This document shows positions 2,132 to 16,111 of a stretch of DNA of 35,319 bases, one piece after another (position 1 is the stretch's first letter; every line of letters begins with the position of its first letter). Source of the DNA: Terriglobus sp. (GTDB lineage Bacteria > Acidobacteriota > Terriglobia > Terriglobales > Acidobacteriaceae); assembly GCA_026225595.1 (NCBI GenBank), contig JAMFTB010000040.1:1-35319 (forward strand), written 5' to 3'. The notes under the pieces were generated by a model, which was not told the origin of the DNA, searched no databases, and was given only the letters and a program-made list of their open reading frames with translations. The position numbers were made by a program, and so were the translations under genes.

Positions 2132-2315
2132 TGTCCTGCCGGACGGGCCCGCTGCGCGCGGGGCGGGCGTTTGCACGCCTTTTTACTTCCTTCGGAGTGG
2201 CCCTTCCGTTGGTCGTGATGAAACTTGATGCCGACCAACGGGAGGGGCGAGGCGAAGCCAGGAAAAAGGTGCGTGAGCACCCGCCCTCCGCGAAGGAGGC
2301 CCGTCCGGCAGGACA
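2132..2315. repeat. Palindromic hairpin/terminator element, copy A (simple form)
   Basis: TGTCCTGCCGGACGGGCC...GGCCCGTCCGGCAGGACA termini; left GGCGT-TTGC-ACGCC-TTTTTA hairpin and, on the minus strand, GGTGC-TCAC-GCACC-TTTTT; starts 3 nt after the aminopeptidase stop. Confidence 0.9.
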
Positions 2316-2350
2316 TCTTTTGGCATCAGCCCTGTACGATAAAGAGCGTC

Positions 2351-3871
2351 ATGCCCAGCGCCACAGCCACGCCCGACCTCAAGACTTTTCTCGCGCTTGC
2401 GAAGAAGAAGCACACGCTTATCCCGGTCTACCGCACCGTCACGGCCGACCTTGAGACGCCCGTCTCCGCATTTCTGCGTATCGCCGCGCAGGAGCCGGAG
2501 GCCTTTCTGCTTGAGAGCGTCGAAGGCGGCGAACGCGTGGGCCGCTATACCTTTATCGGCATCCGTCCGTACAAGAAGCTGGTCTCGCGCGGCACCGCGA
2601 TCGTCGCGACAGAGGGCAAGAAGTCACGCAGCTTTCAGGGCGATATCTTCGCCGAGCTGAAGCATGCGCTCAGCGAACACACGCCCGCCAAGCTGCCCGG
2701 CCTGCCTCCATTCACCGCGGGCGCCGTGGGCTTTTTTGCGTATGACGTTGTGCGGCAGATTGAACGCCTGCCTGCGGCCGCAATCGATGAGCTAGGTGTG
2801 CCCGATGCGTGCCTGATGTTCTTTGATGAAGTGCTCGCATTCGACCACGTCAAGAAGGAGATCTACCTCATCCTGACGGCAGACCTGAAGCGCGAACCCG
2901 ACGCAAGCAAAGCGTACGCGCGCGCCATCAAGCGGCTTGACCGGCTTGAGAAGGAGCTTGCATCTCCGCTGCCGGTGCAGAAGAAGCGCAGAACTCCGCT
3001 GGGTCCGCTGAAGCTGGAACCGCGCACCAAGAAGCGCGACTACATGAAGGCCGTCGCGCAGGTGAAGGAGTACGTTGCCGCGGGCGACATCTTCCAGTGC
3101 GTGCTGTCGCAGCGCTTTGACTGCAAGCCGCAGGTCGATCCATTTGAGATTTACCGTTCATTGCGCATCGTGAATCCGTCGCCCTACATGTACTTCATGC
3201 GCTTCCCAATGCTGAAGCCCGGAGCAACGGTTGCGACGCCCGCGCACATCGTCGGTTCGTCGCCGGAGCTACTGGTGCGCGTGCACGATCGCACCATTGA
3301 GTACCACCCCATCGCGGGCACACGGCCGCGCGGTGCGGATGAAGCGGCGGACAAGCATCTTGAAGAAGACCTGAAGCAAGATGCGAAGGAGGTAGCCGAA
3401 CACGTGATGCTGGTGGACCTGGGCCGCAACGACCTGGGCCGCGTCAGCGAGTTTGGCAGCGTCAGCGTCAAGAAGCTGATGTTCATTGAGCGCTACAGCC
3501 ACGTGATGCACCTGGTCAGCGCGCTTGAGGGAACGCTGAAACCCGGCCTCGCTCCGGTAGATGCCTTCCGCTCATGCTTCCCAGCGGGCACCCTGTCGGG
3601 CGCGCCCAAGATTCGCGCGATGGAGATCATTGAAGAGCTGGAACCGACGCGCCGCGGCGTCTACGGCGGCAGCATCTTCTACGCGGACTTCAGCGGCAAC
3701 CTGGATAGCTGCATCGCCATCCGCACGCTGTTTATGCACGGCGAGGATGGCTACATCCAGTCAGGGGGCGGCGTGGTTGCAGATTCCGTGCCGCAGACGG
3801 AGTACGAAGAAACCGTCAACAAATCCAAAGCCGTAATCCGCGCCATTGAACGCGCCCGCTCTCAGGCTTAA
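2351..3871 (+). CDS. trpE: Anthranilate synthase component I
   Basis: MPSATATPDLKTFLALAKKKHTLIPVYRTVTADLETPVSAFLRI start; chorismate-binding motifs IVNPSPYMYF, GSSPELLVRV, PIAGTRPRG, LVDLGRNDLGRV, FPAGTLSGAPKIRAMEIIEELE, QSGGGVVADS. The listed ORF start at 2225 lies inside the repeat, so 2351 is preferred. Confidence 0.96.
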   Translation: MPSATATPDLKTFLALAKKKHTLIPVYRTVTADLETPVSAFLRIAAQEPEAFLLESVEGGERVGRYTFIGIRPYKKLVSRGTAIVATEGKKSRSFQGDIFAELKHALSEHTPAKLPGLPPFTAGAVGFFAYDVVRQIERLPAAAIDELGVPDACLMFFDEVLAFDHVKKEIYLILTADLKREPDASKAYARAIKRLDRLEKELASPLPVQKKRRTPLGPLKLEPRTKKRDYMKAVAQVKEYVAAGDIFQCVLSQRFDCKPQVDPFEIYRSLRIVNPSPYMYFMRFPMLKPGATVATPAHIVGSSPELLVRVHDRTIEYHPIAGTRPRGADEAADKHLEEDLKQDAKEVAEHVMLVDLGRNDLGRVSEFGSVSVKKLMFIERYSHVMHLVSALEGTLKPGLAPVDAFRSCFPAGTLSGAPKIRAMEIIEELEPTRRGVYGGSIFYADFSGNLDSCIAIRTLFMHGEDGYIQSGGGVVADSVPQTEYEETVNKSKAVIRAIERARSQA

Positions 3872-3878
3872 CAGAACA

Positions 3879-4090
3879 TGTCCTGCCGGACGGGCCCGCT
3901 ACGCGTGGAGCGGGCGTTTCACGCCTTTTTACTGCTTCGCTTAGCCCTCCCGATGGGAGGGATCAAACGCATCACCACAAATTTTGTCATCCTGAGCGGA
4001 GCGCAGCGAAGTCGAAGGACCTGCATTTCGCTGGCGCCAGCACGAATTTCAAATCCTGACCAACGGGAAGGCTGCGCGTCCTGCAGGACA
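3879..4090. repeat. Palindromic hairpin/terminator element, copy B (composite; right arm degenerate)
   Basis: TGTCCTGCCGGACGGGCCCGC... with GGCGT-TTC-ACGCC-TTTTTA; loop contains the TTGTCATCCTGAGCGGAGCGCAGCGAAGTCGAAGGACCTGCA repeat; ends CGTCCTGCAGGACA. Confidence 0.85.
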
Positions 4091-4109
4091 AAATTAGTCT
4101 GTTTATTTT

Positions 4110-4478
4110 CTAGTTGCTGCCAGCCGATGAAGACGGCATCATGCTGATCCAGTTGGTCTCGTCGTAGATCAGCATTTCCGTGTCCTTGTCTTTTTGCGGC
4201 AAGACCCGGGGCGGCGACGGAATGTTTTTGGCGCCCAGCTTGAACAGGTAGAAGGAGAGCGGCGCGCCGGGCAGGTCAATGTATTCGTCTTGCAGAGAGC
4301 CGGAGACGCCTGGCGATGCGGCACCCGTGCGGGCGGCAACTTCCTCTACATGCGCTGACCGGTTGGGTGCGGACCATTCTGCTGCTGGGCTCATAGAGGC
4401 ATGACACACGGGGGCGGCGCACAGTACAGCGGCAGGTAGAGCGAGGCGAACAAAGGCTGCGATCTTCATGGAAGACAC
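4110..4478 (-). CDS. Hypothetical secreted protein (signal peptide)
   Basis: 122 aa; MKIAAFVRLALPAAVLCAAPVCHA signal-like N-terminus; AGGAG ribosome-binding site about 7 nt before a GTG start at 4478. Confidence 0.65.
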   Translation of the reverse strand: MSSMKIAAFVRLALPAAVLCAAPVCHASMSPAAEWSAPNRSAHVEEVAARTGAASPGVSGSLQDEYIDLPGAPLSFYLFKLGAKNIPSPPRVLPQKDKDTEMLIYDETNWISMMPSSSAGSN

Positions 4479-15130: not shown

Positions 15131-15237
15131 GAAAGACGAGCCTCCGCGAAGCGCGGACCAGCATACGCCACATTATCGATAATTGGCTTTGGCTTTCTTG
15201 CGGATGGCAGAGAGCGGACAAAGACTTAGCTACATCT

Positions 15238-15419
15238 TGTCCTGCCGTACGGGCCCGCTGCGCGCGGTGCGGGCGTTTGCACGCCTTTTTACTGCTTCGC
15301 GTGGCCTTCCCGTTGGTCAGGGTGAATGTTGGTGCCGACCATCGGGAGGCGCGAGGCGAAGTCAGTAAAAAGGTGCGTGAGCACCCGCTCTCCGCGCAGG
15401 AGGCTCGTCCGGCAGGACA
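15238..15419. repeat. Palindromic hairpin/terminator element, copy F (simple form)
   Basis: TGTCCTGCCGTACGGGCCCGC...GGCGT-TTGC-ACGCC-TTTTTA; right GTAAAAAGGTGCGTGAGCACC...CTCGTCCGGCAGGACA. Confidence 0.9.
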
Positions 15420-15434
15420 ATGCTTTAGAAGTCT

Positions 15435-15860
15435 TTACGGTTCGCCGGGCAGGTGGCCTGCGTAGTCTTCGGGGCGGACGTTGTTGTCGATGACTGGCAG
15501 CGACGGCAGGTTCAGTGTGCTGCCTGCCTGGTCTACAACGGCCTTTACGCTGGTCAGTACTTCGTCCACCGTCATGGTGTACATCTCGCGGCCGTTGTCG
15601 TAGCCGTTCTCCACGATGGTCTTGAGGTACAGTCCGGCGGCCTGCGCTGCGGCGTAGTCGGTGATGACGTAGCCGGTGGCGCGCTTCATCTGCACCCAGG
15701 CCACGTTGGGCATGGCAATCCACACGGGGCGGCCGCTTACGTCAAAGCGGATGTCGGTGGCGTCTGCATGGCGCGTGGCGATGGCGACGACCGTCGCCTT
15801 CCACACACAGTGCAGCTGGTCGCCGGTCCACTTGTCCACTACGCGGAAGTCCTCGTACAT
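15435..15860 (-). CDS. Hypothetical protein (141 aa)
   Basis: MYEDFRVVDKWTGDQLHCVWKATVVAIATRHADATDIRFDVSGRPVWIAMPNVAWVQM...; AAAGGAGC ribosome-binding site upstream of ATG at 15860. Family not recognised. The listed start at 16352 reads through a repeat. Confidence 0.75.
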   Translation of the reverse strand: MYEDFRVVDKWTGDQLHCVWKATVVAIATRHADATDIRFDVSGRPVWIAMPNVAWVQMKRATGYVITDYAAAQAAGLYLKTIVENGYDNGREMYTMTVDEVLTSVKAVVDQAGSTLNLPSLPVIDNNVRPEDYAGHLPGEP

Positions 15861-15928
15861 GCCTGCTGCTCCTTTTGCGGGGTGCTGCCTTTGAGGGTAT
15901 TGATTCGCAGGCATTCCGTAAAGACCGG

Positions 15929-16111
15929 TGTCCTGCCGGACGGGCCTCCTTCGCGGAGAGCGGGTGCTCACGCACCTTTTTACTGCTGTCGCGCGGGCCT
16001 CCCGATGGTCGGCAAGACATTTTGATCCCGACCATCGGGAGGAGCGAGGCGAAGCCAGCAAAAAGGCGTGCAAACGCCCGCTCCACGCGCAGTGGGCCCG
16101 TCCGGCAGGAC
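15929..16111. repeat. Palindromic hairpin/terminator element, copy G (simple form, in a divergent intergenic region)
   Basis: TGTCCTGCCGGACGGGCCTCCTTCGCGGAGAGC GGGTGC-TCAC-GCACC-TTTTTA; right CAAAAAGGCGTGCAAACGCC...CCCGTCCGGCAGGAC. Confidence 0.9.

Follow-up and report, generated by a model that had tools for sequence, protein, structure and literature searches.

The closest described relatives of the element reported here are doublets of repetitive extragenic palindromic (REP) sequences, known as REPINs (REP doublets forming hairpins) or bacterial interspersed mosaic elements (BIMEs), and the REP-associated tyrosine transposases (RAYTs) (Bertels and Rainey 2011, PMC3116915; Di Nocera 2013, PMC3733652). 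Our element is an intergenic inverted repeat with eight copies in a 35,319 nucleotide stretch of Terriglobus sp. DNA (assembly GCA_026225595.1, contig JAMFTB010000040.1; the whole stretch is called the window in the following). Because its distribution is patchy and because a composite subfamily has been replicated, we consider it, with a probability of about 0.78, to be a non-autonomous mobile intergenic repeat of the Acidobacteriaceae that resembles REPINs and miniature inverted-repeat transposable elements (MITEs).

Like REPINs and BIMEs, the element is extragenic, reaches high copy numbers and consists of an inverted doublet with a variable spacer, and single arms look like remnants. Also shared are the two alternative folds, one long hairpin or separate hairpins, and the position close to genes: REP-type mobile repeats generally sit less than 20 bp from gene 3' ends (PMC3733652) and the stop-side median of our element is 13 bp. 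The differences concern both the arms and the associated transposase: REPs have one palindrome of 20-40 nucleotides and an unpaired GTAG or CGTC tag, while the arms of our element are about 85 nucleotides long, have no such tag and open with TGTCCTGCCGGACGGGC, which contains a 4-bp stem and is followed by two further stem-loops. REPINs also differ from our element in its hypervariable but compensated hairpin 2 and its module with a run of T residues (T-run), and here no RAYT gene is flanked by arms, and two element-rich genomes have no RAYT gene. With its complex multi-hairpin arms, its stems that are hypervariable yet compensated, the lack of a RAYT and a terminator-bearing arm type, the element would represent a new REPIN-like family; it makes testable how REP-type repeats are mobilised without a RAYT and whether they originate from functional sites.

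The terminal inverted repeat (TIR) families of the Acidobacteria TIRYT tyrosine transposases (PMC3733652) are likewise acidobacterial, moderately abundant and partly self-complementary inverted repeats; however, TIRYTs, which are Y1 transposases, lie between TIRs of their own, and no Y1 gene is flanked by arms here, a distinction that is based on the published description and not on TIR sequences (PMC3733652). Bacterial MITEs (NEMIS/Correia, ERIC, Nezha and others) are also short and multicopy, have terminal inverted repeats, fold into hairpins and lie beside genes, but neither a target-site duplication nor a parent insertion sequence (IS) was found for our element in the sampled DNA. The paired DNA uptake sequences (DUS) and uptake signal sequences (USS) of Neisseria and Haemophilus form inverted pairs at gene ends, too, and can form terminators. 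DUS and USS are 9- to 12-mers that also occur inside genes, while our element has a far longer arm that was never found inside genes in the sample.

A unit of two multi-hairpin arms

The 18-mer tip of the arm, with up to one mismatch, has 399 matches (201+198) in the 3.08-Mb draft genome and 0 in the reversed control; a 16-mer tip with up to two mismatches has 447 matches (223+224) and 21 (9+12) in the reversed control. The genome-wide consensus search proposed in the initial annotation thus finds a repeat far beyond chance. Contigs of the draft genome often end in an element (for example C129:1-214, C190:20146-20351, C31:10560-10796 and C231:3-158), which means that the assembly breaks at copies and that the real copy number is probably higher.

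All arm statistics are based on a 953-kb sample of the 3.08-Mb genome, for which some of the contigs were picked because they have matches. An arm profile identified 247 arms in this DNA, with 160 elements and 87 inverted pairs; 82 pairs have a length of 100-500 bp and the modal length is 182 bp. The unit is an inverted pair of arms made of mini-hairpins, with a core of 182 bp. Inside 27 of 84 complete copies there is a second repeat (GTCATCCTGAGCG...), and these composite copies are about 215-375 bp long, mostly 230-270 bp. Across about 264 bp, a length in which the second repeat is included, seven composites are 88-100% identical, and therefore whole units have been copied.

The anatomy of the arm can be followed on the plus strand of the first copy in the window. 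The near-invariant tip (2132..2148) contains hairpin 1 (GTCC-TGCC-GGAC) and is conserved to 91-99% per position in 234 arms. In hairpin 2 (2149..2164) the loop TRCGC is kept and the stem is hypervariable with compensated changes (CCGC/GCGG, CTCC/GGAG, CCAC/GTGG and others): a perfect 4-bp stem is present in 194 of the 234 arms, with 74 expected if the two sides were independent, and in 128 of 147 arms from Edaphobacter-group loci, with 29 expected. Hairpin 3 and the T-run (2165..2185, GGGCGT-TTGC-ACGCC TTTTTA) resemble an intrinsic terminator; the forms of hairpin 3 with a T-run are GGTGC/GCACC, GGCGT/ACGCC and GGCGC/GCGCC, and the form without a T-run is GTCAC/GTGAC. Single hairpins have energies of -3.5 to -8.3 kcal/mol, and the whole element, when folded as RNA, forms a single long hairpin (z = -12.4 for the window copy and -16.6 for that of G144, a single-copy genome described below).

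None of the 247 arms lies inside any of the 757 genes that we predicted with our own simple gene finder, and the equal frequency of copies inside genes and at gene ends that the initial annotation had named as speaking against a terminator is thus not observed. Arms that face a gene end are mostly found directly behind the stop codon (79% at most 30 bp past the stop), and arms that face a gene start (92 of 237 sided arms) are at a median distance of 80 bp. The element is more frequent at convergent junctions than expected by bases (37 observed, 24.6 expected) and less frequent at divergent junctions (15 observed, 32 expected); in many convergent gene pairs the element is the sole sequence between both stop codons. 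As REP repeats in general are found near 3' ends (PMC3733652), the placement alone is no argument for a terminator function. The flanks have a weak preference for A at positions -8 to -5 and for C at position -2 on both sides, with no left/right pairing past the shared motif that would make them an extended inverted repeat.

Distribution in the Acidobacteriaceae and the copy next to terL

Exact matches of the arm were found in Edaphobacter lichenicola M8US30, M8UP30 and M8UP22, in Granulicella sp. S190 and in one metagenome-assembled genome of the Acidobacteriales. Among 398 genomes of the family, the element is numerous in only one other genus, g50 (Edaphobacter group), to which the above Edaphobacter strains belong, with 0-259 tip matches per genome, and close to 0 in the other genera. 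In 18 further species of the genus to which the window belongs there are 0 tip matches, compared to 399 in the window genome; this patchy distribution indicates horizontal arrival and subsequent amplification. Viral, phage and plasmid collections contained no copy of either arm or element, Rfam had no match above the gathering threshold (with two weak matches elsewhere in the window) and the arm sequence was not found in the literature searched.

Most copies of three syntenic Edaphobacter strains occupy orthologous sites, and a few are present in some of the strains and absent from others. At one orthologous site with near-identical flanks, the hairpin-2 stems of the three strains are TCCC/GGGA, GCCC/GGGC and CGCC/GGCG, all paired. 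Such fast and compensated swapping of stems is consistent with exchange between dispersed copies or with strong selection on structure; exchange is favoured by the observation that hairpin 2 is unchanged in the clade with single copies.

Four species with genomes that are 99-100% complete (G144, G344, G286 and G374) have exactly one copy each, also by blastn. In all four, this copy lies between the gene of the terminase large subunit, terL (PF17289), and a HipA-like gene (PF20613), followed by a DUF3037 gene and a portal gene (PF04860). The phage-derived cluster is present in 50 of the 62 genomes of the genus g50; in G144 and G286, the two genomes examined, it has the same ordinary chromosomal setting, and head-tail adaptor and portal were confirmed. 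It is possibly a domesticated prophage or a locus similar to a gene transfer agent. In both genomes the cluster (terminase, portal, head-tail adaptor, HipA-like, DUF3037) is close to genes that resemble glyA and purE/purK, named from the sequence starts only. The viral relatives of the terminase that were examined are without the element. In the window genome, contig C116 stops within terL.

Between species, the single copies are 77-94% identical, compared to 55-66% at the 4-fold degenerate sites of the two flanking genes and 35-79%, with many gaps, in the neighbouring spacers (Fisher p = 1e-19 for the G144/G344 element versus 4-fold sites). Strong conservation with no other copy to convert from indicates purifying selection on the terL-site copy. 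These orthologues mostly have no T-run, and those of G144, G344 and G286 have none on either arm. The element is also present at the terL site of many multi-copy species, and in a terminase tree the single-copy and the multi-copy species form two supported groups; given this shared site and the two groups, the terL-site copy plausibly predates the amplification, and a repeated insertion there is the less likely alternative. The species thus provide a natural series with 0, 1 or more than 100 copies, with the single copy under selection at one phage-derived locus. An improbable but far-reaching extension is that the entire family goes back to one cis-acting site, selected to this day, that lies between terL and the HipA-like gene in the phage-derived cluster. 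This site would have remained single-copy and conserved in one clade, become a mobile intergenic repeat (100-250 tip matches) in another and reached another genus; the phage-like machinery for packaging, processing or transcription control might then still recognise the dispersed copies or be regulated by them.

Mobility, termination and alternative explanations

Each arm is a chain of small stem-loops up to the inner inverted repeat, and the whole element can also close to a long hairpin. If the element is a mobile repeat, copies would spread as whole units into intergenic space, presumably mobilised by an enzyme acting in trans, and would survive mainly just behind stop codons. Where hairpin 3 has a T-run behind it, the copy is expected to be an intrinsic terminator for any gene running into that arm, and a bidirectional one if both arms are of the T-run type.

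Several results weigh against this reading. A search for Y1/RAYT genes (PF01797) in the window genome and five related genomes found no gene flanked by arms: four genomes with the element have 10 matches, of which not one is close to an arm, and there is no match in the two element-rich genomes G062 and G064 (173 and 63 tips). A RAYT was rejected as mobiliser for these reasons, being unlinked to arms and absent from two rich genomes. There is also no target-site duplication, with 1.74 flank matches compared to 1.81 in shuffled pairs, and no clean empty site was obtained when base-exact junctions were sought in the three syntenic Edaphobacter strains, where divergence has blurred the boundaries. 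The individual hairpins 3 of the predicted terminators have moderate energies (-5.4 to -8.3 kcal/mol). Last, the conservation of the single copy shows that at least one copy of the family is functional in cis and not merely selfish. The window genome has three Y1-transposase (RAYT-like) genes, and two of these (loci L081 and L083) lie between palindromic repeats of another, unrelated kind.

Autonomous copies were considered and rejected: long inward arm pairs contain either ordinary genes between separate elements or an IS1595-family IS that is inserted in an element. The latter case, at C41:8053-10597 (locus L064), has the sole transposase gene found between two arms (PF12762) and, with the terminal inverted repeats and the length of 182 bp, could suggest that the element is a MITE whose parent is an IS with identical ends, such as IS1595. 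However, the ends of this IS are its own and differ from those of the element, and it is inserted within the T-run of a normal copy, apparently with an 8-bp duplication (CCTTTTTA); the IS therefore interrupts the element, making the two arms look unpaired, and does not move it. Among arm pairs of up to 5 kb in the sampled DNA there was no other arm-flanked transposase and no parent IS with the same ends. Target-site duplications are lacking as well, and an IS-derived MITE appears very unlikely. A role as a DNA-uptake or other protein-binding signal, similar to DUS, with the inverted pairs being terminators only secondarily, is extremely unlikely: while the near-invariant 17-nucleotide tip and the inverted pairs at gene ends are reminiscent of Neisseria and Haemophilus, there are no isolated tips in genes, conservation extends to an arm composed of several structured modules and 18 congeners have no copy.

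The initial annotation regarded each complete copy as a bidirectional terminator, and the element could indeed be primarily an intrinsic terminator that is kept at gene ends by selection. About 85-90% of the arms in the window genome have a hairpin with a T-run of mostly five residues, and terminator-like hairpins with T-runs were detected in window arms on both strands; many gene ends have no space for another terminator, and convergent junctions are enriched. Judged from these features, many T-type arms are likely to act as intrinsic terminators and bidirectional termination is plausible in the window genome, in which case about 200 gene ends of one genome would have taken their terminator from a mobile element. 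However, the T-run is no better kept at gene ends than at gene starts (perfect in 75% and 80% of the arms, respectively), and 15 copies are in divergent junctions. Most Edaphobacter arms are of the type GTCAC-TTC-GTGAC followed by GTATACC and lack the bidirectional GC hairpin with T-run that is present in most copies of the window genome. Such GTATACC-type arms face a gene end in 59 cases and a gene start in 30 cases, so most gene-end arms are without a T-run, and the T arms have no preference (17 gene-end, 17 gene-start); these numbers also led us to reject an account with terminators at stops and promoters at starts for the T/GTATACC asymmetry. The copies under selection, too, are mostly without a T-run. 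For these reasons we attribute termination to one arm type and do not regard it as the defining function of the element, and a primary role as terminator appears improbable. Rather unlikely, too, is a function at the RNA level, with the chain of hairpins behind the stop codon protecting or processing mRNA 3' ends, as proposed for REPs, and with termination being optional. It could explain why arms with and without T-run have the same positions, with tips 0-30 bp past stop codons regardless of arm type, and it is consistent with the stems conserved through compensation and with the conservation of an orthologue without T-run directly behind terL; yet recognition of single-stranded DNA by a transposase predicts stem compensation as well, and 92 of 237 sided arms face a gene start.

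Copies and other repeats in the window

All eight copies of the window have the left arm at the position and with the hairpin order described in the initial annotation, namely GTCC-TGCC-GGAC, a 4-5 bp hairpin with TRCGC-type loop and GGTGC-TCAC-GCACC or GGCGT-TT(G)C-ACGCC followed by four to five T. A right arm can be recognised in five of the eight (at 2315, 12250, 13975, 15419 and 16112), and the one at 12250 is of the other type, without T-run. No complete right arm is left in the copies at 3879, 5370 and 25815. Four of the eight are candidates for bidirectional termination, with a T-run on both arms.

The element at 2132..2315 is complete (184 bp, T-run on both arms), with its left tip 4 bp past the upstream stop codon and its right tip about 36 bp ahead of a trpE-like start. 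Behind the stop codon of the trpE-like gene, with 8 bp distance, starts the plus-strand copy 3879..4090: its left arm is intact with T-run, it has the GTCATCCTGAGCG repeat inserted and only a stump of the right arm (GTCCTGCAGGACA) is left at about 4090. The copy at 5370..5560, also on the plus strand, has a left arm with an interrupted T-run (CTCTTTA) and the same repeat, and has lost its right arm. Complete again is the element at 12000..12250, between convergent genes with stop codons at 11981 and 12256; its left arm is of the T-run type and its right arm of the second type (GGTCAC-TTC-GTGACTTTCAAC). The element at 13713..13975 is a complete composite of 263 bp with a T-run on both arms and the repeat inside; near-identical composites are found elsewhere in the genome (C156 93%, C34 90% and C266 90%). 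The element at 15238..15419 is a complete 182-bp core with a T-run on both arms and a mutated left hairpin 1 (GTCC-TGCC-GTAC), and the one at 15929..16112 (complete, 184 bp, T-run on both arms) is in a divergent gene junction. Of the copy at 25814..25923 (plus strand) only the left arm is present, with T-run, between convergent genes with stop codons at 25784 and 25924.

The composite copies (13713-13975 and the remnants at 3879 and 5370) include the second repeat (GTCATCCTGAGCGGAGCG...). This intergenic repeat, GTCATCCTGAGCGGAGCGCAGCGAAGTCGAAGGACCTGCATTT, is found at window positions 3979-4046, 5474-5541, 13816-13883 and 24430-24497, and it occurs either alone or inside elements, as in the 27 of 84 complete copies mentioned above. 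A separate family of small palindromes forms short clusters at 6765-6974 and 8058-8167 of the window, with the forms GGCATGGCT-NNA-AGCCATGCC and GGCACAGCT-TCA-AGCTGTGCC.

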